This document shows, one piece after another, positions 1 to 14,603 of a stretch of DNA of 14,603 bases (position 1 is its first letter; the number at the start of each line of letters is the position of its first letter). A program made the position numbers and the translations under genes. Source of the stretch: a bacterium BMS3Abin14. GTDB lineage: Bacteria; BMS3Abin14. The DNA lies in contig BDTG01000049.1 in NCBI GenBank assembly GCA_002897695.1, forward strand, positions 1 through 14,603. Direction: 5' to 3'. The notes under the pieces were generated by a model that was not told where the DNA came from, ran no database searches, and saw only the letters and a program-made list of their open reading frames with translations.

Positions 1-20
1 CCCTCCCCTCAAGGGAGGGG
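1..20 (-). terminator. Possible terminator stem-loop after mobB, at window edge
   Basis: A GC-rich inverted repeat with arms CCCTCCC and GGGAGGG and a 5-nt loop begins about 30 nt downstream of the mobB stop. An alternative 6-bp pairing with a 4-nt loop is also possible. It sits where the terminator of the minus-strand operon would be expected. The U-tract needed for an intrinsic terminator would lie beyond base 1, so the call cannot be completed from this window. It could instead be a bidirectional terminator or a simple stabilising hairpin. Confidence 0.35.
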
Positions 21-49
21 GAAAATTCTTTGCTGCGTCCCCGGCGGCA

Positions 50-556
50 TTATCCTTTCAAAAAGCGCTTTACGATAAAATCGCAGACCACATCGGCATT
101 ATCAAGCGGTAAAACCGGAACATCAACCTCAACCGGCGTATCGGTTACGATGGCTTCAAGGAAGGGATCGCGGGCCTCACCCCTGCAAAGAAGTTCCGTC
201 CCCAGACATCCCCTGTGGACCTCCATTTTGGGGTAGGGGGCCCCTTTGTGTCCTTCCACCAGCATGACATCCAGATCCATCAGCCCATACCGCTTAACCA
301 CGGCGGCAATGGAGGGATTACCGTCTGATTTTCTTCTCAACACCACACCACCGGGTGATGAGATGACGGTTGCGTCGGCGCCTGCCCTGGAGAACTTCCA
401 CGAATCACTGCCCTCTTTGTCGGGGGCGGCCGAATGACCCGTGTGTTTCATGGCCCCGACAACATACCCTCTTTCCTTCAGACCAATGACGATCTTCTCA
501 AGTAGTGTCGTTTTCCCGGCTCCCGAAGGCCCCACGAAAAGAATGATTGGAACCAT
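50..556 (-). CDS. mobB: MobB, molybdopterin-guanine dinucleotide biosynthesis adaptor GTPase
   Basis: This is a predicted 168-residue cytoplasmic P-loop protein. MobB binds GTP and assists MobA in attaching GMP to molybdopterin, the cofactor form used by bacterial molybdo- and tungsto-oxidoreductases. The N-terminus has beta-strand IILFV followed by Walker A GPSGAGKTT (residues 9-17). The family pattern KHTGH (37-41) and the later D...GSDSWKF..AGA stretch (46-60) match MobB. The length is typical. I chose the ATG at 556, which overlaps the uvrC stop as TGATG; a TTG one codon upstream is the alternative. AAAGGGGG lies 6 nt upstream but falls inside a small hairpin (558-570), which suggests translation coupled to uvrC. 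It is the last gene of the uvr cluster. mobA is not in the window, and the pairing with DNA repair looks positional rather than functional. Confidence 0.93.
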   Translation of the reverse strand: MVPIILFVGPSGAGKTTLLEKIVIGLKERGYVVGAMKHTGHSAAPDKEGSDSWKFSRAGADATVISSPGGVVLRRKSDGNPSIAAVVKRYGLMDLDVMLVEGHKGAPYPKMEVHRGCLGTELLCRGEARDPFLEAIVTDTPVEVDVPVLPLDNADVVCDFIVKRFLKG

Positions 557-2415
557 CAAAGGCCCCCTTTCAGTGTATCTTTTTCCAGGGTCTCTTTAAT
601 CCTCTCTGCAACCCTCATGTTCAGCCCCTTGAGGGAAGCAATGTCCTCCAGACGGGCCGCCTTGATCTCACTGAGTGACCTGTAGTGCGTCAAAAGCGCC
701 TTTCTGCGGGCCGGCCCAACCCCTTCAATGCCATCCAGGATACTCAGCAGGTCGGCTTTGCCCCGGCCGGCCCGGTGTCCCTTTAACGCAAATCGGTGGG
801 CTTCATCCCTGAGCATCTGAAGTGTGTGCAGGGCGCGGGAGTTGCGCGGCAGACGCTTTGGATTGGACCTTCCGGGAAGGTAGATCTCGTCAACGGCATT
901 TGCTCCATCCCTTCGTTTGGCGGCCCTGGCCTTGGAGATGGCTGCCAGAAAAGGGACCTCCACATTCAGGGCGGCCATGACCCCGGAAACCCTTGAAAGC
1001 TGCCCTTTTCCACCGTCGATCAAAAGGAGGTCCGGCGTTTTCAGTTCACCTGCCGCCGTCCCGGTGAACCGCCTGGTGATTACCTCCTCCAGCGCCGCGT
1101 AATCATCGCCCGGGACCCCGCCGTCGCGGATTGAAAAAAGCCGGTAACCCTCCTTGTCCAGCTCGCCCCCTTTCCACGAGACGATACTGCCGTATGCAAG
1201 CCGCCCTGACGTATGTGAAATATCCATGCACTCGATGTGTTTTGGGGAGGACTCCATACCCAGGGCGGCCGCTATTTCCGAGGAGACATTCGAGGCCGTC
1301 TCCCTTCTCGCCATGAAGACATCAAAAGCCTGCCGGGCGTTTTCCTCCGCAAGATGAAGCAGCCTGGCGCCCTTTCCTCTCGATGGCCGCTGAATCCTGA
1401 CCGACCTTCCCGCTAATTCCGAAAGTATCTCCGCATGCTCGGGAGCAAATTCCAGGCCGACGGGGAAAAGGATCCTGCCGGGCACGGCAACATCCTTCCT
1501 GTAGTGGGCAGAGATGAAGGCATCCATGGCCTCTTCAGCACTGTACTGCCCATCAAGGGCCATCTCCTTACGGCCGACGATGAGCCCTGAACGCACAAAA
1601 AGGCATATGAGGACCGACAGGGGCCCACAGGCCACGTATCCCAGGATGTCGAGGTCATCTCCAGGATCCCCCACTGCGTTTTGTCCCTCGAGGATACTGT
1701 GGAGCGCCATGACCCTGTCACGCAAAACTGCTGCCTCTTCAAAACGGAGGCTCGATGAAAGTCTGGCCATCTCCTTTTCCCACGAAGCTGCGATTCGTCT
1801 CCCCTGTCCCTTGAGAAAACCCATGACCCCATCCACCATTTTCCCGTATTCCTCGGCGCTGATCTCCCCAGCGCACGGCCCGGTGCAACGACCCATCTGG
1901 AAATCAAGACAGGGCCTTCCGGGGGTGGTCCTCCCGCCGGGCCTGGCCCCCTTGCAGCGCCGGAGCGGAAAAGCCCTGTGCAGATACCCCATCATCCTGC
2001 GCGCGGATCCGACATCGGTAAATGGACCGAAATAGGTACTTTTGTCCTTGAAAATACGGCGTGTAATTTCCAGCCTTGGAAACTCTTCCCCGGTGGTAAT
2101 TCGAAAGTAGGGATAGCTCTTGTCGTCTTTGAGATCTATGTTGTAGTGGGGGCGGTAGGTCTTGATAAGGTTGGCCTCCATGAGGAGGGCCTCCTTTTCA
2201 GATCCGGCAACAATCACTTCTACCGAATCAATATTTGACACCATTACCGCCGTCCGGGAGTTCTGCTTTCCCGTGAAGTACTGTTTGACCCTTTTGCGCA
2301 GGTTCTTTGCCTTCCCAACGTACAGATGGCTTCCATCTGAATCCCGGTATATATATACCCCGGGTGTCGAAGGGAGATGCTCCAGCTGCTCCGTCAGCCT
2401 TTCATCGATTTCCAT
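556..2415 (-). CDS. uvrC: UvrC, excinuclease ABC subunit C
   Basis: This is the 619-residue dual-incision nuclease of nucleotide excision repair, which is recruited by the UvrB-DNA complex and cuts 3' and 5' of a lesion. The N-terminal GIY-YIG nuclease is seen in GVYIYRD (19-25) and [12 protein letters not shown] (31-42). Cysteines 154, 169, 177 and 181 match the four-cysteine set that binds [4Fe-4S] in studied UvrC proteins. The UVR motif that pairs with UvrB is near 216-242. The RNase H-like nuclease carries CMDIS (D398), the DD pair near 437, LIDGGKGQ (D467) and RDEAHRFA (H540). Tandem helix-hairpin-helix motifs fill 557-612. Length and domain order are normal and no key residue is missing. 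Its ATG overlaps the uvrB end by 14 nt, which indicates coupling. Confidence 0.98.
558..570 (-). promoter_or_regulatory. Small hairpin covering the mobB ribosome binding site
   Basis: On the minus strand the bases just before the mobB ATG read AAAGG-GGG-CCTTT, a perfect 5-bp stem with a 3-nt loop. The stem contains the only good Shine-Dalgarno sequence for mobB and also encodes the last codons of uvrC. Ribosomes finishing uvrC would melt it. Coupled translation is therefore inferred, not shown. Confidence 0.35.
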
Positions 2416-4453
2416 TTCGGAACCCCGACCGCTGTTTTTTTCCTTTTTTCCCCCTGCCGTGAACCGTCCTGGCCGGAGCGCCCAGCATTATCTGTCTGCC
2501 TTCAAGTTGTCGAATCCTGTCCCTGATTTCCGCCGCCCGTTCAAACTCCAGCTGACCCGCGGCATCCATCATCTCGGCCCCGAGCGCTTCGATGGTCCCC
2601 TGGAGATCCTCCGGTTGAAAATCACCCTCAACCGGGGCCAGGGTCACGTAGTCCACCTCCTCGACAGGGGACAATGCGTCGTGGATCCGGCTCCTGACCG
2701 ATTCGGGCGTTATTCCATGTTCGCTGTTATATGCCATCTGGACGGCTCTTCTTCTCTCGGTTTCAGCCACGGCCCTCTTGATGGAATTGGTCATCACGTC
2801 CGCATATAGAATGGCCTCCCCCTCCACGTTTCGCGCTGCCCGGCCCATGGTCTGGATCAGGGCCGTTTCCGAGCGGAGAAACCCTTCCCTGTCCGCGTCC
2901 ATTATAGCAACCAGGGATACCTCCGGCAGGTCCAGCCCCTCACGCAGGAGATTGATTCCAACGAGGACGTCGAATACACCCAGACGCAGTTCCCGTATAA
3001 TCCGGACCCTGTCGAGGGTATCGATATCCGAATGGAGGTACTGAACTTTTATCTCCAGCTCCTCCAGATAGCTGGTAAGGTCCTCGGCCATCCTTTTGGT
3101 AAGGGTCGTCACCATGACACGGCAGCCCCGGGAGGTTACTTCCCTGATGCGTTCCACGAGATTGTCCACCTGATGACTCGCCGGCTCAATGATCACCCTT
3201 GGATCGATCAACCCGGTCGGCCTGATAACCTGCTCGATAACCTCACCACCGGTCTTTCCCAGTTCGTATGGCCCCGGGGTTGCGGAAACGAAGATCCTCG
3301 GGAGTTTTACACTCTCGAACTCCTTAAATGTAAGAGGACGGTTATCAAATGCCGAAGGCAGTCGGAAACCGAACTCAACCAGGCTCTCTTTGCGTGATCG
3401 ATCGCCATTGTACATGGCCCTGACCTGGGGCACTGTCTGGTGGCTCTCATCGAGAATCATCATACTGTCCCCTGGGAAGTAATCGAGAAGCGTCGGCGGC
3501 GGCTCGCCTACACTTCTGCCGGTCAGATGCCGTGAGTAGTTCTCAATCCCCTTGCAGTAACCTGCGATCTGCATCATTTCCAGATCGAATGCGGTCCTTT
3601 CAGCAATCCTCTGGGCTTCCACAAGCCGTCCACGAGATCGGAAATATTCTGCCCGTTCCTTCAACTCATCCTCTATTCCGAGGATAGCCTCTTTCATCCT
3701 GTCCTCTGGAATAACATAGTGACTGGCAGGGAAAACGCTGACATCACCTACTTCCCGTGAAGCTTTGAGCGTAAGGGGATCAAGGTAAACCAGACGTTCG
3801 ATATGGTCATCGAACAGCTCGATTCTCAGCCCATTTTCCTCGTAGGCAGGAAAAAGATCGATCACCTCCCCCCTGACCCTGAAGGTCCCACGGTGAAAAT
3901 CGATATCATTCCGCTCGTAACGCATCTCCACGAGGCTCGAAAGTATTCCCTCTCGGGTAACCTTTTCCCCGACCCTGAAGTTGACCAGCATGTCACGGTA
4001 TGCGGCAGGGGAACCCAGGCCGAAAATGCAGGAGACGGATGAGACGACCAGAACATCCTGTCTGGTGAGCAGCGATCGCGTGGCCGAATGGCGCAGACGG
4101 TCAATTACCTCGTTTATGGAGCTGTCCTTCTCGATGAAAGTATCGGTCTGCGGAACGTAGGCCTCCGGTTGATAATAATCGTAATAGGAAACAAAATATT
4201 CAACCGCGTTGTTGGGGAAAAACCCTTTGAATTCCTGGTAGAGCTGCGCCGCCAGGGTCTTGTTGTGAGCAAGAATCAGGGTTGGACGGCGGATTCTGGA
4301 TATGACGTTGGCGAGGGTGAATGTCTTTCCGGAGCCGGTGACGCCAAGGAGGACCTGGTAATTCTTTTCTTCTGAAATACCCCTGGAAAGGGCATCTATC
4401 GCCCCTGGCTGATCTCCTCTGGGAGAATAGTCGGAAACAAGTTTAAATTCCAA
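2402..4453 (-). CDS. uvrB: UvrB, excinuclease ABC subunit B
   Basis: This is a 683-residue DNA-damage-verifying helicase-like ATPase that receives lesions from UvrA and loads UvrC. Seen in order: the family start [15 protein letters not shown] (2-16), Walker A GVTGSGKT (37-44), the lesion-probing beta-hairpin [12 protein letters not shown] (90-101), the UvrA-contact region with [11 protein letters not shown] (243-253), DESH (335-338), SATPGPYE (390-397), motif [11 protein letters not shown] (534-542) and a C-terminal UVR motif (about 617-652). The chosen start is TTG at 4453, 4 nt after the stop of the gene above, because conserved UvrB sequence begins there. Its ribosome site (GGCGG) is weak, so coupling is likely. 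An ATG at 4489 with GGGA upstream would add 12 residues and overlap the neighbour. The reading frame stays open further upstream, but that is the shadow of the neighbouring gene. Confidence 0.97.
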
Positions 4454-4457
4454 TGTC

Positions 4458-5846
4458 TTACCGCCCCAGGAGAAAAACCAGCGCCCCATCTTCGTATCCC
4501 ACTGCGAGATCGCCTTTCCCATCACCGTTAAAATCGCCCGAACACAGGTTCGTCGAGAGCCTTTTATTGCTGACAAGAACGGGAGTCTCCCTGATACGGT
4601 TGTTCTCAAGGACAAAGAGCCCCAGTGTCCTTCCCGTTCCATCAGGAGCGACAAGGTCGTTGTGCCCGTTATTGTTAAAATCGCCGATGAGGGCCATCTC
4701 CAGATTGCGTGATCCTTTAATGTGGGTGGAGATACCGGCTTTTCGCACCAGTCGGGTTGCGGCCAGATCAGTCCTGAACAGCTCCAGATCACCCATTCCC
4801 GAGGGGTGGACCACGGCAATTATGAATTGGCGGCCCTCATCCCCGAACATCGACTTGCCGATTACCTGAATAAATGATTTGCCGGAGGCTACACGGCTCG
4901 CCCGAACCTCCGTCAGCCGTCTTTTTGAAAATGACAGGACTCTGATCGAGGACCCCTCGTCGTCGCTTACAGTGGCCAGGATCTCCTTTCCGGGCCCGTT
5001 GTAAACCTCTGCGAGAACCGGCTTGAGATCCTCGAATACTTCCGGTGAATCGAGTTTGTATTCATCCACCAGCTTAATAATCTTTCCGTCCCAGGAGAAG
5101 ACGGCAATCCCTTGTGCCTCTGTTTCATCACCAAGGCGCCCGAAACTGAATCCGTCGGTTGGCATGGAAAAGGCAACCGCCTCGAGTTTTCCGTCATCGT
5201 TAAGGTCCGCCACGGAAATGCGCGAATCAGGAAGAAGCATCGTGTTGTTGTCCGATCTGGTGGCATTCCTTCCGATGACGACGGTAAAACGGCCTTCATC
5301 GTTTATGCCCAAAATCTCATCGGTTCCGTCCCCATCCAGATCAGCGGCAACCAGAGGGGCCAGAAGAGAAAAATCATTGGCGACCCTGCTTGATCGTCCT
5401 CTCTTTGAAGACAGTGTCTTCAGGACTCCACGATCACTTACCACAAGGATTTTTTTATCCGATGCGGCGATCTTTGAATGAAGGATGAGGGGTGGGGATT
5501 GCGGGGAGATCCCCTCAACTGTCCATATCGTGCTTATGGTTTTATTCCCAAGTCTCATAAGACGCAGCGAGCCGTTTTCAAAAAGGACCAGGGCCTCGTC
5601 AACGCCGTCGCCGTCAACGTCCCCCGAGATGATCCACTGCGGACGCTCGTTCGTCCTCGTCCTTATGCTTCTGCTGCTGGTCAGATCCCCCCTCAGGGAA
5701 ACTATGGGGTTGGACTCAAGCAACCCTGTTGCTGTGGAGCCGCTGTTTTGTCCTGTACGATAAATGGGTTCGTAGGCCAGGGAATTTGCGGCAATCAGCA
5801 ACAGGGCGGCAATCGGCAGGAAAACTTCAAAGAGGACCCTGTTCAC
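4458..5846 (-). CDS. Secreted FG-GAP/VCBS repeat protein (beta-propeller-like)
   Basis: This 462-residue protein has an N-terminal signal peptide: a hydrophobic core at about 8-20 and a likely signal peptidase I cut after SLA24. It is therefore predicted to be exported. Five calcium-binding-type motifs of the D-x-D/N-x-D/N-G pattern occur near 76-84, 169-177, 214-222, 389-397 and 438-446, each followed by a hydrophobic strand as in FG-GAP/VCBS repeats. Weaker repeat-like stretches near 124-141, 282-292 and 333-346 suggest a 7- or 8-bladed propeller with some degenerate blades. No catalytic domain or membrane anchor is evident. The GTG start has a strong AAAGGAGA 6 nt upstream. uvrB begins 4 nt after its stop, so the two are probably co-transcribed. 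Function is unknown; FG-GAP proteins bind ligands or polysaccharide at the cell surface, but no ligand is indicated here. Confidence 0.85.
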
Positions 5847-5852
5847 GAAACA

Positions 5853-5860
5853 TCTCCTTT
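5853..5860 (-). promoter_or_regulatory. Ribosome binding site fixing the GTG start of the FG-GAP gene
   Basis: AAAGGAGA on the minus strand lies 6 nt before the GTG at 5846. It is the best Shine-Dalgarno match in the window. It supports this GTG, and the signal peptide that follows it, as the true start. Confidence 0.75.
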
Positions 5861-5899
5861 ACTCATGAGACCAATGTCCGCAAGGCAACGATCGGGAAT

Positions 5900-5930
5900 G
5901 AATTATTACCCTAATATATCATTTTAAGTT
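5900..5930 (-). promoter_or_regulatory. AT-rich candidate promoter for the FG-GAP-uvrB-uvrC-mobB unit
   Basis: The 138-bp gap between livF and the FG-GAP gene holds an AT-rich patch. On the minus strand it contains TATATT (plus-strand 5913-5918) and a nearby TAATAAT, either of which could serve as a -10 box. No good -35 box is present at the right spacing (CTGCCC at 17 bp is poor). No SOS-box-like palindrome is visible. I also see no hairpin plus U-tract after livF, so read-through from the liv operon is possible. Confidence 0.3.
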
Positions 5931-5984
5931 ACGGAGGGCAGGATTAGAAACGTAAACGCGGAAGGAGGCGGGAAATGCTGGAGC

Positions 5985-6689
5985 CTACTCCCCCAGATAC
6001 GCTTCCTTGACCTTGGGGTTGTTAAGCAGGGCATCCGAGGTGTCTTCGAGAACAACATTGCCCGTCTCGATAACGTACCCTCTCTGGGCGACCTGAAGCG
6101 CCATGAAGGCATTCTGCTCGACGAGGAGGATGGTGGTACCCTGCTTGTTGATCTCCTGAATAACGGTAAAGATCTTTTCGACGACAATGGGAGCGAGTCC
6201 AAGGGACGGCTCGTCAAGGAGAAGAAGCTTCGGACGTGCCATCAATGCCCTGCCGATGGCCAGCATCTGCTGCTCCCCGCCGGAGAGGGTGCCTCCATCC
6301 TGGTTTTTTCTCTCCTTCATTATCGGAAAGAGTTCAAAAACCATTTCGAGACTCTCTTTCACCCCTGCCGTATCCTTGCGGACGTAGGAACCCAGAAGGA
6401 GATTTTCGCTTACAGTAAGATGGGGAAATATACGCCTTCCTTCGGGCACCTGTGAGATCCCCATCTTTACAATACCGTCGGGCTGAGACCGGGTAATGTC
6501 CACATTTTGAAACGTGATGGACCCCTTTTTAGGACGGCATATCCCGGAGATAGACATGAGGGTGGTGGATTTCCCAGCGCCGTTGGCGCCGATAAGGGTG
6601 ACGATCTCGCCTGGGCGAACGTGCAAAGATATTCCCTTCAGCGCCTGAATGTTTCCATAATAGGTCTGGATTTCATCAATATTCAGCAT
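5985..6689 (-). CDS. livF: LivF, branched-chain amino acid ABC transporter ATPase
   Basis: This 234-residue cytoplasmic nucleotide-binding subunit powers high-affinity uptake of branched-chain or related amino acids together with LivG. Visible motifs are Walker A GANGAGKS (34-41), the Q-loop region SQVPEGR (79-85), signature LSGGEQ (135-140), Walker B LLLLDE (155-160) and VEQN (190-193). The last replaces the usual H-loop histidine, as is normal for LivF. The protein ends with EAYLGE, also typical. The ATG at 6689 was preferred over an in-frame ATG at 6734 because the LivF family starts at the MLNIDEIQTYYG-like segment and GGAG lies 8 nt upstream. It follows livG after a 78-bp spacer that shows no strong signal. 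It is the last gene of the liv operon. Confidence 0.96.
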   Translation of the reverse strand: MLNIDEIQTYYGNIQALKGISLHVRPGEIVTLIGANGAGKSTTLMSISGICRPKKGSITFQNVDITRSQPDGIVKMGISQVPEGRRIFPHLTVSENLLLGSYVRKDTAGVKESLEMVFELFPIMKERKNQDGGTLSGGEQQMLAIGRALMARPKLLLLDEPSLGLAPIVVEKIFTVIQEINKQGTTILLVEQNAFMALQVAQRGYVIETGNVVLEDTSDALLNNPKVKEAYLGE

Positions 6690-6767
6690 CAGCCAGACTC
6701 CGCACCCATCCGGGGATGCACGTTGCCCGGACATCCTGTTTGATAAACTTTCGGCGAAGTGATTTTA

Positions 6768-7967
6768 TTACTGCGCCACATACGCCGACCCCAGGTAAGC
6801 CTCGATTACCCGGCGATCTGACTTGATCGTCTCAGGTCTGCCCTCGGCGATCTTTTGACCGTGATCGAGAACAATAATCCGATCTGAAATCTTCATTATC
6901 ACCTTCATGTCATGCTCGATCAGGAGAATGGCAATACCGCTATCCCTGATTTTATCAATAAGCCTTATCAGCATGGCCGTCTCCTGGGGATTCATTCCGG
7001 CAGCGGGTTCATCGAGCAGAAGAACCTTTGGATCGGTAGCCAGCGCCCTGGCTATTTCCAGGATTCGCTGTTCACCGTATGGCAGGTTGGCCGCAAGAGA
7101 CCCGGCCTTGTGACGAAGACCGACGAACTTCAGGGTTTTCATGGCCTTCCCCCTGGTCTCCCGTTCCTCTCTGCGTTGGAACCTCGTCCCCAGGATTATG
7201 GAAAACACGTTGGTTGATGTCCTGCAGTGCCGGCCCAGCATCACGTTCTCCATGACCGAGAGGTTTGAAAAAAGACGGATGTTCTGGAAGGTTCTGGCGA
7301 TCCCAAGCTGGGTTACGGCGTCAGGCCGGGTGAAAATACCGAAAAGGGTTTTTACGTCCTTTCTGAGCAGGTTGATAAAATAGTATGCAGGGTAGGAGAT
7401 CATGATAAGCGCGGCTGGAATCATGAGATACTCAAGGGGGAAGAAACCAAAGAAGGATTTATGAGCATACCACTCTGCAAATTTCACCAGCCAGATCGCG
7501 CCAATCCCCGCATCGAGAGTGGCAAAAAGCAGGGTGACCCCCCTTGTCCAGGGCACCCCGTGACGAAGCCTTGCACCCAGAAAAATACGGAAAGCCCCGA
7601 CACACAGCATCGCGATGACAAACTCGATCTGGAATGCGACACTGTTCAGGTAGGTGGCCAGCACGAGAAATGTCCACAGGATAGAGATGCCGATGAAAAA
7701 GCGGGCCATTTTGGCAAGCTGGGCCATCAGGTTGATCATCGGCGGCGGGACCAGATCCACACCCATGAAATTGATCGTTCCGGAGGATGGAATGGTAATT
7801 CCTGTAAGGCAGTTGAAGAAGGTGGTTTTACCGGCGCCGTTAGGCCCGATGAGGCCTACGATCTCACCCTCATTAACTGTAAGATCAACGTTCTCCAGCG
7901 CCGCCAGCCCACCAAAGACTTTTCCGATGCCGGAACCCTGGAGCAATGTTTTGCGCTCAACCACCAT
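6768..7967 (-). CDS. livG: LivG-type ABC ATPase with a large membrane-spanning insertion
   Basis: This is the second ATPase of the liv transporter but has 399 residues, whereas E. coli LivG has 255. The conserved parts are all present: Walker A GPNGAGKTT (41-49), Q-loop in GIARTFQNIRLF (222-233), signature LPYGEQ (295-300, usually LSYGQQ), Walker B VLLLDEP (315-321, catalytic E320), H-loop IEHDM (350-354) and the family ending VIEAYLG. The extra length is a single block at about 77-218 between the Walker A half and the Q-loop, with four hydrophobic segments, described as its own feature. The frame is unbroken and both flanks align with ordinary LivG, so this is neither a frameshift nor a split gene. 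ATPase function appears intact. The ATG overlaps the livM stop as TGATG, and the gene lies in the standard operon position. Confidence 0.93.
   Translation of the reverse strand: MVVERKTLLQGSGIGKVFGGLAALENVDLTVNEGEIVGLIGPNGAGKTTFFNCLTGITIPSSGTINFMGVDLVPPPMINLMAQLAKMARFFIGISILWTFLVLATYLNSVAFQIEFVIAMLCVGAFRIFLGARLRHGVPWTRGVTLLFATLDAGIGAIWLVKFAEWYAHKSFFGFFPLEYLMIPAALIMISYPAYYFINLLRKDVKTLFGIFTRPDAVTQLGIARTFQNIRLFSNLSVMENVMLGRHCRTSTNVFSIILGTRFQRREERETRGKAMKTLKFVGLRHKAGSLAANLPYGEQRILEIARALATDPKVLLLDEPAAGMNPQETAMLIRLIDKIRDSGIAILLIEHDMKVIMKISDRIIVLDHGQKIAEGRPETIKSDRRVIEAYLGSAYVAQ
7314..7739 (-). other. Four-helix membrane insertion inside LivG
   Basis: This segment encodes LivG residues about 77-218. 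Hydrophobic stretches near 89-108, 111-131, 143-161 and 180-200 are long enough to cross a membrane. The segments before helix 1 (AKMAR), between helices 2 and 3 (GARLRHGVPWTRG) and after helix 4 (LLRKDVK) are rich in Lys/Arg. The helix 1-2 loop has none, and the helix 3-4 loop has two Lys and one His. By the positive-inside rule this gives four crossings with both ends in the cytoplasm, as a cytoplasmic ATPase would need. I do not recognise the sequence as any known domain. Boundaries are uncertain by about 5-10 residues. Confidence 0.75.
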
Positions 7968-9085
7968 CAGAGACCCTTCACCTTGTCGATGGCCCTGATG
8001 TCATAAAGGGAATCATCTTCCGCGTCCAGTTCCGAGTCATCCGGATGCATTTCGCCCTTGACCCGGGCAGCGGGAAAAAGCCCCTCGGGTCTGAACCTCA
8101 TCATGATTACCAGGATAAGCCCAAAAATAAGGTACCTGGCCTGAACCATATTTTGAGCTACTTCGATCGGTATGTGGATACCGACAAAGGACATGATCCG
8201 GGGAAGATTCTGGAGTACGGATCTTAGCACCTCGGTCATCGGAATAAGAATGCCTGCGCCGAAAAGGACCCCTTTTATGTTTCCCATGCCGCCAAAAACG
8301 ATAAGGCAAAGGATCAGGATGGATTCCCAGAACTTGAACATGTCCGGGTGAATGAAAAGAAACCATCGGGCAAAAAACGCGCCTCCCAAGGCCCCGATGG
8401 AAGCGCTGATTGCAAAAGCGATAATTTTGTAATTTATGATATTGATTCCGACGCATTCGGCCGCTATCTCATCTTCCCTGATGGCAAACCAGGCCCTTCC
8501 AAGCCTTGAATTCTCGATGCGGCGAACGACAAAGAGCACCAGGCCCAGAAGGGCGAAAACCAGAAAATAAAACTCCCACCCGGCCTTCAGAACGTGGCCG
8601 AATAAAACCGGCGGTTTGATCCCGGGCAATCCCATGGGACCCCGGGTCAGCCATATCTCGTTCCTGATTACCAGAACCACCAGTTCGGAGAAACCAAAGG
8701 TTACAATGGCAAAGTAATCACCCGTTAGTCTGAGGGTCGGCGCCCCGAGCAGGATCCCCCACAGGGCCCCGTTCATTGCTGCCAGGGGAAGTATGACCCA
8801 GAAGGAGATACCATAGTGGATAGTAAGCAGCCCGGCCGTATAGGCGCCGATCCCGTAGAAACCCACATACCCGAGATCAAGCAGCCCGGTGAACCCGACA
8901 ACGATGTTCAGGCCCAATGCAAGGATCATATAGAGCATGGTGAGCGTGATGATCCTGAGAAAATAGGATTTGCCGCTTCCCAGGGGCAGGAGGGGCAGAA
9001 TGACCACGAAAAACAGCAAACACGCAGCGGCGGCCTTCCCGCTGAGTAATCTGCCCGTATTGAACCTGTGGAAACTCAAGGACAT
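7967..9085 (-). CDS. livM: LivM, branched-chain amino acid ABC transporter permease
   Basis: This is a 372-residue inner-membrane permease that forms the translocation path with LivH. It has many hydrophobic helices. The N-terminal half has the family segment ALGLNIVVGFTGLLDLGYV (56-74). The cytoplasmic loop GRAWFAIREDEIAAECVGIN (196-215) is the LivM-type coupling loop that docks on the ATPases, and FGGMGNIKG (264-272) and FRPEGLFP (331-338) are typical. Beyond FRPEGLFP there is an unusual acidic tail (about 345-360, with eight Asp/Glu). livH ends 1 nt before this ATG, and livG starts within its stop codon. It is certain as a LivM-family permease; the exact substrate cannot be read from the sequence. 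Confidence 0.96.
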   Translation of the reverse strand: MSLSFHRFNTGRLLSGKAAAACLLFFVVILPLLPLGSGKSYFLRIITLTMLYMILALGLNIVVGFTGLLDLGYVGFYGIGAYTAGLLTIHYGISFWVILPLAAMNGALWGILLGAPTLRLTGDYFAIVTFGFSELVVLVIRNEIWLTRGPMGLPGIKPPVLFGHVLKAGWEFYFLVFALLGLVLFVVRRIENSRLGRAWFAIREDEIAAECVGINIINYKIIAFAISASIGALGGAFFARWFLFIHPDMFKFWESILILCLIVFGGMGNIKGVLFGAGILIPMTEVLRSVLQNLPRIMSFVGIHIPIEVAQNMVQARYLIFGLILVIMMRFRPEGLFPAARVKGEMHPDDSELDAEDDSLYDIRAIDKVKGL

Positions 9086-9086
9086 A

Positions 9087-10004
9087 TCAGACCTTTTCCG
9101 TCGTAGATTTGCCCAGCAAACCGGAGGGTTTGAAAATTATGACAAGTATCATTACAGCGTAGGCTATCCCATCCCTGTATGGTGAAGATATATATCCAGC
9201 GCCCATAACCTCCGCCATGCCCAATATTCCACCGCCGAGCATGGCGCCGGGAACGGAACCTATGCCGCCGAGTACGGCTGCAGCGAACGCCTTAATGCCG
9301 GCGATGTATCCCATGGTAGGCCAGATGGCGTTGTAGTACATCCCAACGAGGATGCCGGCAACTCCCCCCATGCCCGAACCGATAGCGAATGTGAAGGAGA
9401 TGACACGATTGACGTTGATGCCCATAAGGGAAGCTGTGACCTTGTCCTGGGCGATGGCGCGCATGGCGGTTCCCACCTTCGTCCTGTGGATTATGGCGTT
9501 AAGTCCGGCCATTATCACGATTGCGACACCAAGGATAAAGACCTGGAGCCAGGTAACCCGTATATTCCCTAAGGAAAAAGCGGTCGTTGAGAAAACTGGG
9601 GGTAGCTTCGCCCGAGGGAAGGCCTTGATGTCCGACCCCCAGATCATAAGAGCGAGGTTCTGAAGGAAAATCGACATCCCGATGGCTGTAATAAGGGCGG
9701 CCAACCGTGGAGCATTACGTAAAGGCCGGTACGCAACGATGTCCAGGATAACCCCAAGGATGGCACAGAGAACGATGGCCACAGGAAACGCTACCCATAT
9801 GCTCAGCCCCATGGAGGTTACCATGGTGAAGGAAAAAAATGCTCCCATCATGTAAACTTCGCCGTGTGCGAAATTGATGAGTTCGATTACGCCGTAGACC
9901 ATGGTGTAGCCCACAGCGATCAAGGCATATACGGATCCCAGCGTTATGCCGTTTATTACCTGCTGGCCAAACAGGGAGATGGAATCCAGAAAGGCATGGG
10001 GCAC
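9087..10004 (-). CDS. livH: LivH, branched-chain amino acid ABC transporter permease
   Basis: This is a 305-residue inner-membrane permease and the partner of LivM. The start region (QQVINGITLGSVYALIAVGY) and INFAHGEVYMMGAF are classic LivH sequence, and the coupling loop GTAMRAIAQDKVTASLMGIN precedes the last helices. It ends with FKPSGLLGKSTTEKV. The frame stays open to a possible start at 10079, but the 25 extra residues do not look like LivH. I chose the GTG at 10004 because GAGGT sits 9 nt upstream and family homology begins within a few residues. It lies downstream of livJ, separated by a 177-bp spacer with two stem-loops that may lower its expression relative to the binding protein. 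Confidence 0.95.
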   Translation of the reverse strand: MPHAFLDSISLFGQQVINGITLGSVYALIAVGYTMVYGVIELINFAHGEVYMMGAFFSFTMVTSMGLSIWVAFPVAIVLCAILGVILDIVAYRPLRNAPRLAALITAIGMSIFLQNLALMIWGSDIKAFPRAKLPPVFSTTAFSLGNIRVTWLQVFILGVAIVIMAGLNAIIHRTKVGTAMRAIAQDKVTASLMGINVNRVISFTFAIGSGMGGVAGILVGMYYNAIWPTMGYIAGIKAFAAAVLGGIGSVPGAMLGGGILGMAEVMGAGYISSPYRDGIAYAVMILVIIFKPSGLLGKSTTEKV

Positions 10005-10013
10005 TCTTGGTTT

Positions 10014-10018
10014 ACCTC
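10014..10018 (-). promoter_or_regulatory. Ribosome binding site for livH
   Basis: GAGGT on the minus strand lies 9 nt before GTG 10004. It decides between that GTG and start codons further upstream in the same open frame. Confidence 0.6.
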
Positions 10019-10054
10019 GTACTTTTTGTGGACTAAGAAAATGTCCATCAAACG

Positions 10055-10081
10055 GGATGCGGCAATGCTCTGCCTGCATCC
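10055..10081 (-). other. Second stem-loop in the livJ-livH spacer
   Basis: On the minus strand GGATGC-A-GGCA and TGCCGCATCC pair into a 10-bp stem with one bulged A and a 6-nt loop (GAGCAT). No U-tract follows, so it is not an intrinsic terminator. It lies between the U-tract hairpin and the livH ribosome site. It might protect a processed transcript end or control livH translation; this role is inferred. Confidence 0.45.
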
Positions 10082-10111
10082 CCGGATAGCTGTCAGCAAA
10101 GCATCAAGAAG

Positions 10112-10155
10112 GCAAAAAGAGACAGGCGGGCAAAAAAGAGTCCGAGCCCGCCTGT
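10112..10155 (-). terminator. Intrinsic terminator/attenuator between livJ and livH
   Basis: On the minus strand a perfect 10-bp stem (ACAGGCGGGC with GCCCGCCTGT, plus-strand arms 10146-10155 and 10122-10131) encloses a 14-nt loop. It is followed by CTC and five T residues. It begins about 26 nt after the livJ stop, inside what otherwise looks like one operon. A partial terminator here would give excess binding-protein mRNA over permease and ATPase mRNA, as is common in binding-protein-dependent transporters. The interruption of the U-run by C suggests leaky termination. Confidence 0.7.
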
Positions 10156-10181
10156 TTCTTCCCGCCTCAGAGGTGCGGAAC

Positions 10182-11342
10182 TCAGTCCGTCATCTGCTTT
10201 TCAGCGCTGAGCCATTTTCCGTTCTTGATCGTCTTGACAAACGCGGGCTTGAGGCAGTCACCATTCTCGTCGAAATAGGTGGCCCCGGTCACGCCCTTGT
10301 AGGCTTTCTCAGGAGAATTGAGGGAGGCAAGGTAATCCCTGATCTTCTCTCTGTCCGTTCCAACCTTCATCATGGCCTGCACAGCCATGCCTACAGCGTC
10401 ATAGGTGTTGGCGGCGAACCAGTTGGGCTCTACATTATACTTTTTCTTGTAGGCCTTGATAAACTTCTGAGCATCAGGCCCGGCCTTGTCGGGAAGGAAA
10501 GGAGTTGTTATCAGGAGGCCTTCGGCATCAGGGTTCGCCAGCATGATCTTGTCATCCAGGCCGTCTGCCCCGAAAAATCCAGTCTTTATACCGAGCTTGG
10601 CGGCCTGCGAGATAATGAGGGTCGCCTGAGGCGCGTACCCGGGAATAAAGATAGCGTCGGGTTTCGAGGTCTTCAACTTGGTGAGCTGCGGGGTAAAGTC
10701 CGTCGTATCGCTGGTATATGCCTCTTCTCCCAGTATCTCGATCCCCAGGGTTGAAGCTTCACCCTCAAAGGCATTCTTCAGGCCTATGGAATAATCGTTC
10801 ATCTCGTAAAAAATAGCTATTTTATTCCACCCCATGACTTCTTTGACGTACTTGGCGAGGAAAACTCCCTGAAAATCGTCCTTGTAGACGTCGCGGAAGT
10901 AGTAGGGGCTCATTTTCCCGATAGCGGGGTTCGTGCTTGCCGGGGAGATGGCCGGAAGCTTGGCTTCCTTGTAGATGGGGAGGGCAGCCATGGTGGAGGA
11001 GCTGCAAAGGTGGCCGATGACGATGAATACGTCGGGATCGGCGGCGAATTTGGTGGCGACGTTGGCAGCCTCCTTGGGATCGCAAAGATCATCGCCGAGA
11101 ACGATGTCTACCTTGCGTCCGTTGATCCCTCCTGCTGCGTTAACCTCCTCGCCCATCAGCAAGGCGGCGTTCTTGACACCCTCACCGAATGTTGCGAGAG
11201 GACCGGTGTAGGGGGAGGCGACAGGGATCTTGATCGCCTTCTCAACCTTTACCTCCTCCTTTTTCTTCGCACACCCTGCAAAAACAAAGATCAGACCCAC
11301 TGCGACTAATGCAATTTTCCAGACCAAGCCTTTTTTCTTCAT
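10182..11342 (-). CDS. livJ: LivJ/LivK-type branched-chain amino acid binding lipoprotein
   Basis: This 386-residue periplasmic substrate-binding protein delivers ligand to LivHM. Its signal sequence has a basic start (MKKK), a hydrophobic core and a lipobox FAGC with Cys24, so it is probably anchored as a lipoprotein. Phe at the -3 position is less usual than Leu or Val. The mature part has the LIV-binding-protein hallmarks: the hinge start IKIPVASPYTGP, DDLCDPKEA (Cys87), GHLCSSST (Cys113; the pair matches the conserved disulfide) and AISPASTNP (131-139), which lines the amino acid site in LIV-binding proteins. This supports aliphatic amino acids, though relatives bind amides or other ligands. 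AGGAG lies 6 nt before the ATG. It is the first gene of the liv operon and is probably driven by the promoter at 11545-11573. Confidence 0.95.
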   Translation of the reverse strand: MKKKGLVWKIALVAVGLIFVFAGCAKKKEEVKVEKAIKIPVASPYTGPLATFGEGVKNAALLMGEEVNAAGGINGRKVDIVLGDDLCDPKEAANVATKFAADPDVFIVIGHLCSSSTMAALPIYKEAKLPAISPASTNPAIGKMSPYYFRDVYKDDFQGVFLAKYVKEVMGWNKIAIFYEMNDYSIGLKNAFEGEASTLGIEILGEEAYTSDTTDFTPQLTKLKTSKPDAIFIPGYAPQATLIISQAAKLGIKTGFFGADGLDDKIMLANPDAEGLLITTPFLPDKAGPDAQKFIKAYKKKYNVEPNWFAANTYDAVGMAVQAMMKVGTDREKIRDYLASLNSPEKAYKGVTGATYFDENGDCLKPAFVKTIKNGKWLSAEKQMTD

Positions 11343-11436
11343 TGTCCTCTCCTATTCTACCCAGTTTGGTTTTATCCAGCCCACTTTCCAGGTCACCGAA
11401 ACTATACACAAAGATAAGGTCGCCAAAAGCATATCT

Positions 11437-11457
11437 GCCTGCGTATGACGCACAGGC
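11437..11457 (-). repeat. Imperfect palindromic repeat, copy 1, in liv leader
   Basis: This 21-bp element matches copy 2 at 11614-11634 in 16 of 21 positions and in the same orientation. On the minus strand it can fold as GCC-(TG bulge)-TGCGT / ACGCA-GGC with a 3-nt CAT loop, giving 8 pairs. It lies in the inferred 5' untranslated region of livJ. It could be a dispersed palindromic repeat of the REP kind or an operator. Confidence 0.45.
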
Positions 11458-11544
11458 AAGTTCGCAGTTTTCCACTCTACTCCCATTAACTGGCACGTTG
11501 ATAAGTTTTTACAAATCCATCAACCAGACAAAAGGTATAGCGAA

Positions 11545-11573
11545 AGCATAAGGATTTTTTTTTGGATCGTCAA
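11545..11573 (-). promoter_or_regulatory. Sigma70-type promoter for the liv operon
   Basis: On the minus strand, TTGACG (plus 11568-11573) and TATGCT (plus 11545-11550) are separated by exactly 17 bp. They match the -35 and -10 consensus at 5 of 6 and 4 of 6 positions. The spacer contains a run of nine A residues. Transcription would start near 11538, giving a leader of roughly 195 nt before livJ. Confidence 0.65.
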
Positions 11574-11613
11574 TAGGTACAGCGGGCCCTAAATCCGCGA
11601 TTGGCTTAAGCTT

Positions 11614-11634
11614 GTCTGCGTGCGGCGCACAGGT
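11614..11634 (-). repeat. Imperfect palindromic repeat, copy 2, after glcF
   Basis: This is related to copy 1 at 11437-11457 (16 of 21 identical, starts 177 bp apart). On the minus strand it contains GTGC-GCC-GCAC and begins 5 nt after the glcF stop codon. Its position just past a stop codon fits a 3'-end stabilising hairpin or an intergenic REP-like element. Confidence 0.45.
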
Positions 11635-11639
11635 GGGCT

Positions 11640-12944
11640 TCACGTTGGACGTTTATTTCCACGCAGCTTAACGAGCAGGTCAGTAACGTGCAGTACCTCG
11701 ACATCCCCGTGCCCGTTGCGGATGAGGCCGTCCCTGATGTGCATGATGCACGCGGGACAGGACGTCACCACGGTCCGGGTGCCGGAGGCGATGATGTTCT
11801 TCACCTTTCGGTCGTTGACATCCTTGGAGATATCGTAGTGCTCCACAGAAAAGGACCCCCCCATGCCGCAGCACCTGTCCGCCTCATCCATTGGCACGTA
11901 CTTAACGCCGGGCAGAGACTCCATGAGGACGATGGGCTCATCCCTGATCCCCTGAAGGCGCCCAAGGTGACATGGGTGATGGTAGGTAACCTTCAGTTCC
12001 GGAATCGCATCCTGCGGCGTTTCAGCCGGGGTCTGACCGGGCAGGCCTCGCCGGAAGAAAAATTCGTTGATGTCCTGGAGCTTCGGCACAAAGCCGGCGA
12101 TGCGATCCTTCCGGATGCCCGCCTCATCCAGAAGTGCCCCGAAGTTGCCCTTGAGGTTGCCGCCGCATGTGGCGCAGCCCGTAACAATGAAGTCCAGATC
12201 ATACTTCTCGAATGCTTCGAGGTTCTGGACAGCGAGATCCCTCACGGTCCCCCTGGCACCTCCTGTGAGCGCAGGCATGCCGCAGCAGACCTGTTCCCCG
12301 GGTACGATCACCGTGGCGCCCGTATCGGCGATAAGGTCCATCATCCCCTCCCCCATTTCTGGGTAGAAGTAGTTGGTCATGCATCCCGCGAAGATACCGA
12401 CCCTGGGCCCCTCTCCCTTCATTACAGTACCGTGAAATCGATCGGTGAAAAACCGCCGGGCAAGTTTCGGCACAGTACGGTCGCCGGCTATAAGGGGAAG
12501 CGGAAATCTGCGCCTTAAGCCGCTGGCCGCCGGGACCCTTCGAAACATGAATCCCTGGAGGGCACGGCCGGTTTTAACGGCGAACCTGAACCTCTTCGCG
12601 GCCCCCAGAAGGTGGTTGAGAATGAGACCTTTCCCGGTCTTCATCCCGACCCCGGAGGCCATTTTTTCCCTGGCACGGAGCATTATATCGAGGGTGGGAA
12701 CGTTGCTGGGGCAGGCCTCCTCACAGGCCCCGCACAAAAGGCAGGTCTCCAGATACTCCCTGTAGCGTCCGGTCTGTTCTATACGGTCCCGGGAAACGGC
12801 CTCGATGAGGGCCATTTTCCCCCTGGCGCCGCTTGACTCCAGGGCTCTGACACCGAAGACGGGGCACACGGGCCGGCAGGTGCCGCACTTGACGCACATG
12901 GAGGCAGCATCGGGGGTAACGTTTGAACGATCTTCCCTATCCAC
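11640..12944 (-). CDS. glcF: GlcF-like iron-sulfur subunit of glycolate/D-lactate oxidase
   Basis: This 434-residue cytoplasmic or membrane-associated electron-transfer subunit accepts electrons from the FAD subunit encoded just before it. Two ferredoxin-type [4Fe-4S] motifs are seen near the N-terminus: CVKCGTCRPVC (cysteines 17, 20, 23, 27) and CLLCGACEEAC (68, 71, 74, 78). Two CCG domains follow: GCMTN (C188), CCGMP (220-221) with CATC (257, 260); and HHPCH (C325), CCGMGG (358-359) with CPAC (396, 399). These are the heterodisulfide-reductase-like cysteine sets of GlcF. I chose the GTG at 12944, which overlaps the glcD stop by 8 nt and has GGGAG about 13 nt upstream. A TTG at 12971 would add nine residues but lacks a ribosome site. 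All metal ligands are intact. Glycolate versus D-lactate cannot be decided. Confidence 0.92.
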   Translation of the reverse strand: MDREDRSNVTPDAASMCVKCGTCRPVCPVFGVRALESSGARGKMALIEAVSRDRIEQTGRYREYLETCLLCGACEEACPSNVPTLDIMLRAREKMASGVGMKTGKGLILNHLLGAAKRFRFAVKTGRALQGFMFRRVPAASGLRRRFPLPLIAGDRTVPKLARRFFTDRFHGTVMKGEGPRVGIFAGCMTNYFYPEMGEGMMDLIADTGATVIVPGEQVCCGMPALTGGARGTVRDLAVQNLEAFEKYDLDFIVTGCATCGGNLKGNFGALLDEAGIRKDRIAGFVPKLQDINEFFFRRGLPGQTPAETPQDAIPELKVTYHHPCHLGRLQGIRDEPIVLMESLPGVKYVPMDEADRCCGMGGSFSVEHYDISKDVNDRKVKNIIASGTRTVVTSCPACIMHIRDGLIRNGHGDVEVLHVTDLLVKLRGNKRPT

Positions 12945-14370
12945 GCGGAGCCAGGATCTCCCTGTCTTCAATATCGGCTATATAATCAAAGGTTTTGTAC
13001 GGATTGAGAATGTTATTGGGGTCCAGGGCCCTTTTAATCCGCCTCATGACATCCATGGTATCCTTATCGACTTCGAGGTACATGTACGGGGCTTTGGCAA
13101 TCCCGATTCCGTGCTCGCCAGACAGGCTGCCTCCAAGGCTCACGGTAAGTTCGAACAGATCCTCCAGGGCGGTATGGGCCCGGGCCACCTCGTCCTTGTC
13201 CTCAGGATCGATGAGGAGGTTGACATGGACATTGCCGTCGCCGGCATGGCCGAAATTCACGATCCTGACATCCCGCTTTTCGGCGATCTCCTCGACCCCC
13301 CGGATCAGGTCGGGAATCTTCATCCTCGGGACGGCGACATCCTCATTGATCTTCAGGGGCCTGATCTTCATGATGGCCGGAGAAATGGACCTTCGCGCCT
13401 TCCACAGGGATTCCCTCTCCTCCGGCGTCGAGGCGGTTTGAAACAGGATGGCCCCGGCCTCACGGCAGACATTTTCCAGGATCGTCACCTGGTCTTCCAC
13501 CACGCCGGGGGGTCCGTCGACCTCTATGAGCAGCAGAGCGGCCGCCTCGGAAGGGATTTCGAGATCGAGGTAGTCCTTGACGCAGTCGATGGCCGACCGG
13601 TCCATGAACTCCAGGGTGGACGGCACGATTCTGCTGGTCATTATGTTCGTCACGGCCATGCAGGCCTGCCGGACCTCGGGGAAGGAGGTAAGCATGCTCC
13701 CCACGGCCTGGGGCTTGGGGATCAGCTTCAGAAGAAGCCTGGTGATGACTCCGAGCGTACCCTCGGATCCAACGAGAAGCCTTGTAAGGTCGTACCCGGT
13801 CACACTTTTCATGGCGGCCGAACCGGTATGGATGATCTCACCCGTGGGCATCACAACCTCGAGGGCCATGACGTAATCCCTGGTTACGCCGTACTTGACG
13901 GCCCGGCTTCCGCCGGCGTTCTCCGCGGCATTTCCACCCAGAGTCGAGAATTTCGCACTGGAGGGGTCCGGCGGAAAAAAGAGACCCTGTTTTTCGGCTT
14001 CCGCCTGAAGGTCACCGTTGATGACCCCCGATTCCACCCACGCGGTCATGTTCTCCCGGTCGATGCCGATAATACGGTTCAGGCGGGACGTGGTGAGGAT
14101 CAGGCCTCCGGCCACGGGAAGGGAACCGCCGGTCAGCCCCGTCCCCCCGCCGCGCGGAACGACGGGAAAACCCTCGGCGTTGGCCAGTTTGAGGATGGAA
14201 GAGATCTGGGCGGCGTCGGCAGGATGCGCAACCATCTCCGGCAGAAAGTGCCGGTTCATGGCGTCGAATGCGTATAGGCACAGGTCTTCCGGCTTGTCCG
14301 AACAGTTGTCGGGACCTACGATCCGACGGATCTTTTCACGGGTCTTTGAATCCAGCTTCTTTAACTCCAT
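12937..14370 (-). CDS. glcD: GlcD-like FAD-linked 2-hydroxyacid oxidase/dehydrogenase
   Basis: This 477-residue flavoprotein probably oxidises glycolate to glyoxylate or D-lactate to pyruvate and passes electrons to the Fe-S subunit downstream. The PCMH-type FAD domain shows PRGGGTGLTGG (72-82), PPDPSS (133-138), GGNAAENAGG (145-154), KYGVTRDYV (159-167) and GSEGTLGVIT (201-210). The C-terminal oxidase domain shows NEDVAVPRMKIP (342-353), the metal- and substrate-site motif GHAGDGNVH (374-382), SGEHGIG (417-423) and DPNNILNP (450-457). Length is normal. The ATG overlaps the upstream malic enzyme stop as TGATG, and AAAGG lies a few bases before it. No glcE follows, which resembles two-gene GlcD/GlcF or D-lactate dehydrogenase sets rather than E. 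coli glcDEF. Confidence 0.94.
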   Translation of the reverse strand: MELKKLDSKTREKIRRIVGPDNCSDKPEDLCLYAFDAMNRHFLPEMVAHPADAAQISSILKLANAEGFPVVPRGGGTGLTGGSLPVAGGLILTTSRLNRIIGIDRENMTAWVESGVINGDLQAEAEKQGLFFPPDPSSAKFSTLGGNAAENAGGSRAVKYGVTRDYVMALEVVMPTGEIIHTGSAAMKSVTGYDLTRLLVGSEGTLGVITRLLLKLIPKPQAVGSMLTSFPEVRQACMAVTNIMTSRIVPSTLEFMDRSAIDCVKDYLDLEIPSEAAALLLIEVDGPPGVVEDQVTILENVCREAGAILFQTASTPEERESLWKARRSISPAIMKIRPLKINEDVAVPRMKIPDLIRGVEEIAEKRDVRIVNFGHAGDGNVHVNLLIDPEDKDEVARAHTALEDLFELTVSLGGSLSGEHGIGIAKAPYMYLEVDKDTMDVMRRIKRALDPNNILNPYKTFDYIADIEDREILAPRG

Positions 14371-14603
14371 CAGCCTTTCAGGTGGCGCATATGGCCTTCA
14401 TAGAGGTACTCAAGGGTCTGAGCGGCGACATCCTCGGGATCGACCTCGATCCTGGCCTCTCCGGTCTCGATTGCCGATCTTGCCACCGCCGCGGCCACCT
14501 GTGGCGGCACCTTGAAATTCATGGTGCTGGGAATGATATATTCAGCCTTCAGGTCCTTGTCGTCGATGAATTCGGCGATGGCATGGGCTGCCGCCAGCTT
14601 CAT
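14370..14603 (-). CDS. Malic enzyme, C-terminal end only (cut by window edge)
   Basis: Only the last 77 residues are inside the window; the gene continues past base 14603. The segment KLAAAHAIAEF, followed by AEYIIPSTMNFKVPPQVAAAVARSAI, is the characteristic C-terminal tail of bacterial NAD(P)-dependent malic enzymes (oxidative decarboxylation of malate to pyruvate and CO2). The Met at the window edge is probably internal, not the start. The catalytic and NAD-binding parts are outside, so cofactor preference and integrity cannot be judged. Its stop overlaps the glcD start as TGATG, which suggests co-transcription. Both enzymes could feed the pyruvate or glyoxylate pool, which fits an organic-acid oxidation operon. 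Confidence 0.83.
   Translation of the reverse strand: MKLAAAHAIAEFIDDKDLKAEYIIPSTMNFKVPPQVAAAVARSAIETGEARIEVDPEDVAAQTLEYLYEGHMRHLKG

Follow-up and report, generated by a model that had tools for sequence, protein, structure and literature searches.

A predicted four-helix membrane domain inside the LivG ATPase of a LivKHMGF-type importer

Results

An intact LivG interrupted by an extra block

We find that a bacterial LivG, the ATPase subunit of a LivKHMGF-type amino-acid importer, carries a block of four predicted membrane helices within its catalytic fold, and that the block recurs at the same site in related operons. ABC importers are modular, with soluble ATPases that dock on separate membrane subunits via coupling helices. 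As a structure-level observation, the LivG with an internal membrane block is well supported and constitutes a conserved variant of a known machine.

The gene lies on a 14,603-nucleotide stretch of DNA of bacterium BMS3Abin14 (contig BDTG01000049.1, positions 1 to 14,603), the whole of which we call the window, and the liv operon is on its minus strand. The operon order is livK-livH-livM-livG-livF, from 11342 to 5985. Open reading frames and Pfam profiles identify the periplasmic binding protein LivK (Peripla_BP_6; 10182..11342), the permeases LivH (9087..10079) and LivM (7967..9085), and a second ABC ATPase, LivF, without insert (5985..6734). livG itself (6768..7967), which encodes an ABC ATPase with an internal predicted membrane domain, is a single frame of 399 amino acids with an ATG start and zero internal stops. 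From the look of the sequence, 11640-14370, upstream of livK, holds a GlcF-like/GlcD-like pair (an iron-sulphur subunit and an FAD-linked oxidase).

Alignment places every ATPase motif in LivG, complete and in the correct order: Walker A GPNGAGKTT (residues 41-49, 7821..7847), the Q-loop RTFQ ending in Gln228 (residues 225-228, 7284..7295), the signature LPYGEQ (residues 295-300, 7068..7085), Walker B with the catalytic glutamate (residues 315-320, 7008..7025, within an LLLLDEP stretch that runs to 321) and the H-loop His352 (6912..6914). The BCA_ABC_TP_C tail (PF12399) follows at residues 371-395 (6783..6857) and scores 40.7 bits against a Pfam cut-off of 25.5. Pfam and NCBIfam models hit the protein as two stretches with a gap of about 140 residues between them; the best NCBIfam match, the E. 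coli-type LivG equivalog NF008449, likewise aligns in two stretches and reaches 271.5 bits, below its cut-off of 362. The protein is therefore LivG-type by motifs, fold, tail and operon, and falls outside the E. coli equivalog cut-off. Indeed, the first-pass annotation of this DNA, made from the letters alone, had described an intact LivG in one unbroken frame with an extra block, and that description holds.

The borders of the block come from an alignment to MJ1267 of Methanocaldococcus jannaschii (1g6h), in which query residue 73 pairs with MJ1267 residue 72 and query residue 215 with MJ1267 residue 76. Since the match stops at 73 and restarts at 215, the block comprises residues 74-214 (7326..7748), which are missing from insert-less LivG. 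These 141 extra residues follow the last ABC-beta strand and precede the helix ahead of the Q-loop; MJ1267 has three residues in this place. The earlier placement at 7314-7739 was thus right about the existence and site of the block, with borders a few residues off. The ABC core of the predicted structure superposes on MJ1267 (1gaj) with Z 30.5 and rmsd 1.8 over 235 aligned residues; therefore the catalytic fold is predicted to be intact despite the block.

Four predicted membrane helices ahead of the Q-loop

AlphaFold2, supplied with an alignment of 25 LivGs (the window protein and loci from relatives' genomes), modelled the whole protein with a mean pLDDT of 86.1 and a pTM of 0.74, and placed four helices of 22-32 residues in the block; the block folded by itself gave the same four helices at pLDDT 77. 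In the model the chain exits the core after strand 70-73, part of the ABC-beta subdomain, and rejoins it at a helix (215-221) that runs on to Gln228. Re-entry lies 14 residues ahead of that glutamine, in keeping with the earlier statement that the insertion falls just before the Q-loop. Predicted helix 1 (residues 78-109, 7641..7736; AlphaFold2 and hydropathy) probably has its first ten or so residues in the cytoplasm. Helix 2 (residues 113-134, 7566..7631) contains invariant Glu115 and Arg127, helix 3 (residues 139-161, 7485..7553) invariant Asp152, and helix 4 (residues 178-200, 7368..7436) invariant Pro184, all three as predicted by AlphaFold2; an RxxxKxxFGxF link joins helix 4 to the ABC core.

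Hydropathy agrees with the first-pass count of four hydrophobic helices. A 19-residue Kyte-Doolittle scan gave exactly four peaks in the window block (1.78-2.05) and the same number in each of five other long-insert proteins, with zero in 15 insert-less LivGs. Lysine and arginine number 2, 3 and 4 on the cytoplasmic flanks as against 0 and 2 in the outer loops. We therefore favour a four-crossing topology with both termini inside, as first proposed, for a block whose membrane location is predicted from sequence. Buried soluble helices had been named as an outcome that would overturn the proposal; in the model the helices instead come together as a bundle of their own, apart from the ABC fold. 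Given four predicted membrane helices, the window LivG would be a variant rather than a plain peripheral subunit.

The block is conserved in two phyla

Six genomes from two phyla, the window's and five others from separate assemblies, have this block in frame and at one and the same site. It is 82% identical to the window in a congener (G001), 59% in two further genera of the window's family (G002, CP070719.1; G010, QIFJ01000210.1), and 22-26% in G108 and G246, which are both of the sampled genomes of another phylum. A contig scan with the single window protein found no relatives, and an alignment-based scan then found CP070719.1 and QIFJ01000210.1; G108 was found by a profile of four family sequences and G246 by a search starting from G108. 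In G246 (L096), livG has no livF downstream, and the next gene, after 6780, resembles an iron-sulphur (ferredoxin-like) protein.

Some of these genomes, several in number, were assembled from metagenomes, as might befit an assembly chimera or a frameshifted fusion with an unrelated membrane-protein gene. That explanation is refuted by the identical in-frame site in six separately assembled genomes and by purifying selection over the block, and we give it practically no weight. Both objections foreseen at first pass, a chimera and same-species homologues lacking the block, thus fell away, as the relatives share the in-frame block.

Across the six sequences 16 block positions are invariant (P74, S95, Y106, E115, F116, F126, R127, V138, W140, D152, P184, R202, K206, F209, G210 and F212), and the motifs EF, FR, VxW, D, P and RxxxKxxFGxF are common to both phyla. 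Among in-helix columns, three of the seven charged in the window protein are invariant, versus six of the 82 others (Fisher p 0.02, on small numbers). These invariant in-helix charges disfavour a mere greasy anchor; Arg127 in helix 2 and Asp152 in helix 3 point to specific packing between helices, such as a buried ion pair.

Between the window and its congener, the Nei-Gojobori method gave dN 0.103 and dS 0.655 for the block, a dN/dS of about 0.16, and dN/dS of 0.02 and 0.06 for the two core parts (dN 0.008 and 0.062). The block is under purifying selection, which had been put forward as a check, and is less constrained than the ATPase core. These rates also bear on whether the block is a tolerated neutral decoration of single origin, kept by descent. 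Its faster divergence than the core, down to the low identity across phyla, and the existence of close relatives without it would suit such a decoration, but the preservation of helices, charges and motifs in two phyla, the dN/dS value, and the presence of the block in every operon seen of its clade make this account improbable.

Most LivGs lack the block

LivG-type matches occur in 174 of 386 genomes sampled across the domain; among the matches listed, the insertion site is unbroken. The block profile matched six genomes only (the window, G001, G002, G010, G108 and G246). When 55 distinct LivG sequences were compared, the long insert occurred in six and a short one in five; the remaining 44 were normally spaced. 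Other LivG paralogues of the window genome lack the block, and it is therefore dispensable for the general mechanism. Other genomes of the window's family likewise encode a LivG that lacks the insert, as part of another liv operon. The expectation that the block might be clade-wide is thus borne out for the livKHMGF operon lineage and fails for the family as a whole. The block is also absent from the three genomes of the phylum that includes G354, whose operon is an insert-less sister. Weak profile matches in G143 and G316 were rejected, as their frames overlap ordinary genes or run antisense to them. In G354, G255, G285, G186 and others, long LivG frames have normal spacing from Walker A to the Q-loop, with the extra length upstream.

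A family of a third phylum (f166, six genomes) has an insert at the same LivG site (L090, L105-L109). It resembles the window block in being hydrophobic and differs in its length of about 40 residues, its one hydrophobic segment, its lack of evident sequence similarity and its separate operon clade. In short-insert operons of this family (L115-L118), LivH has about 100 additional residues mid-permease, after FPDLYPA, that look soluble and that the window LivH lacks.

The block matches no Pfam family

Pfam profiles run against the six inserts gave nothing above cut-off, a PDB sequence search with the block returned zero relatives, and the block did not match the Pfam permease family BPD_transp_2. 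A PDB fold search returned generic four-helix bundles, with Foldseek E values of at least 2 and Z scores of at most 9.5. The earlier remark that the inserted sequence belongs to no recognised domain is upheld by the Pfam and PDB sequence searches. The open-access papers searched do not describe a membrane domain within an ABC ATPase subunit, which is weak evidence of absence.

In LivM of L020, L021, L023, L024, L025, L069, L072 and L081 we observed an N-terminal extension of about 75-85 residues, apparently two extra membrane helices (FWFMLLTFPIMVIRVN ... WRWMNLL ... AFILSYLWRF), that the window LivM lacks; in L097 it has no Pfam match above cut-off. The block might substitute for this extension of the family's other liv operon, given that the extension is present in the family's insert-less operons and missing from insert-bearing ones. 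However, the insert-less sister operon (G354, L122) and G139 also lack it, and a profile comparison of block and extension detected no homology (P 0.12, equal to controls), leaving such substitution very unlikely. An origin of the block in LivM's N-terminal hairpin was rejected for want of profile similarity, and with the sister operon lacking both.

A probable single gain in one operon lineage

With the insert columns removed, the LivG tree places all insert-bearing proteins together with weak support (51/15). A single clade for the six long-insert LivGs is compatible with the data (p-AU 0.24). A local gain, starting from insert-less LivG of the same family, is 29.7 log-likelihood units worse but falls short of formal rejection on LivG alone (p-AU 0.067); the groups tested in these trees were defined after inspection of the data. 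The LivH+LivM tree unites the long-insert operons of both phyla in one clade (100/98), with the insert-less operon (G354, L122) as sister (100/99) and the f166 short-insert operons as a separate clade (100/100). This tree is without G002 and G010, as the G010 contig starts within livM and G002 offers a livG-livF piece between N runs. The identities of the window LivK, 71% to G108, 66% to G246 and 31-35% to the LivK of the family's insert-less operon, agree with the LivH+LivM tree.

Because the block-bearing operons form one clade in the LivH+LivM tree, the block was probably gained once, in this operon lineage, as judged from sequence. In the simplest account the operon that bears it would then have reached both phyla by vertical descent or transfer, and the insert-less sister lineage (G354, L122) may have lost it. 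The same LivG site probably took hydrophobic insertions twice, or once with reduction.

One genomic site in the window's family, before an FG-GAP-like gene and uvrB, holds either of two liv operons (window 5985-11342 versus L094, L097 and L099). Their LivKs have the 31-35% identity given above, and livF comes before or after other genes; it looks as though one liv operon was replaced by the other in place. The window gene between the operon and uvrB (4458-5846) appears by sequence to encode a secreted FG-GAP/VCBS-like repeat protein, and a similar-looking gene occupies the same place in L094, L097, L098 and L099.

Discussion

On balance we think it rather likely that this LivG is an integral membrane subunit, with a predicted bundle that anchors the ATPase next to LivH/LivM, close to the Q-loop. 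In one clade of amino-acid importers of the LivKHMGF type, LivG would have become an integral membrane protein through a four-helix bundle in the loop that joins the ABC-beta subdomain to the Q-loop. The polypeptide would leave the core after strand 70-73, cross the membrane four times with both ends cytoplasmic, and rejoin the core at the helix leading into the Q-loop, the ABC fold being unaltered. The bundle may pack beside LivH/LivM and keep LivG permanently at the membrane on the coupling-helix side, and this permanent anchoring could stabilise an asymmetric assembly of LivF/LivG and LivH/LivM. In the maltose importer a permease coupling helix docks in a cleft of the ATPase helical subdomain, and the permease tail touches the Q-loop (PMC3150292); from this docking we infer that the insertion site should be close to the face that the ATPase turns to the membrane.

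The short distance from core re-entry to Gln228, the invariant charges in membrane helices and the conserved RxxxKxxFGxF link would also suit a regulatory or sensing domain that controls ATP hydrolysis by moving the Q-loop in response to a bound lipid, ion or substrate or to the state of the membrane. Yet the Pfam and PDB searches matched the block to no ligand-binding family or fold, its small outer loops leave little space for a soluble ligand site, and the sequence does not separate gating from anchoring. We consider such a role, whose logic would resemble that of regulatory insertions in other ABC ATPases, rather unlikely. It is conceivable, and we offer it tentatively, that the bundle is a membrane domain of a new class, regulatory or accessory, built into the ABC ATPase fold, contacting LivH/LivM in the bilayer and coupling membrane or substrate state to the Q-loop, with LivG as a third membrane partner.

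Compared with LivG/BraF of branched-chain amino-acid importers (MJ1267 1g6h/1gaj, NF008449, PF12399), the window protein is alike in core, motifs, C-terminal tail and its LivK, LivH, LivM and LivF partners; whereas known LivG is peripheral and about 255 residues long, it has the additional 141 residues and four predicted membrane helices within the core. Permease-ATPase fusions have their membrane part at one end, external to the ATPase fold. The window LivG shares with them an ATPase covalently joined to membrane helices, but here the membrane part interrupts the fold and does not match BPD_transp_2. The regulatory insertion of CFTR NBD1 is similar in being an extra segment within an ABC nucleotide-binding domain, and is reported to be missing from the NBDs of other ABC transporters (PMC7350234). 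That insertion is 32 residues long, dynamic and phosphorylated, in contrast to the predicted polytopic membrane domain of the window LivG.

If true, the anchoring of LivG by its bundle would mean that the interface between ATPase and permease can be bridged covalently, by a polytopic membrane domain that interrupts the catalytic fold just before the Q-loop. The operon lineage would then provide a natural experiment on how ATPase and permease are held together and communicate, with the insert-less sister operon as the comparison.
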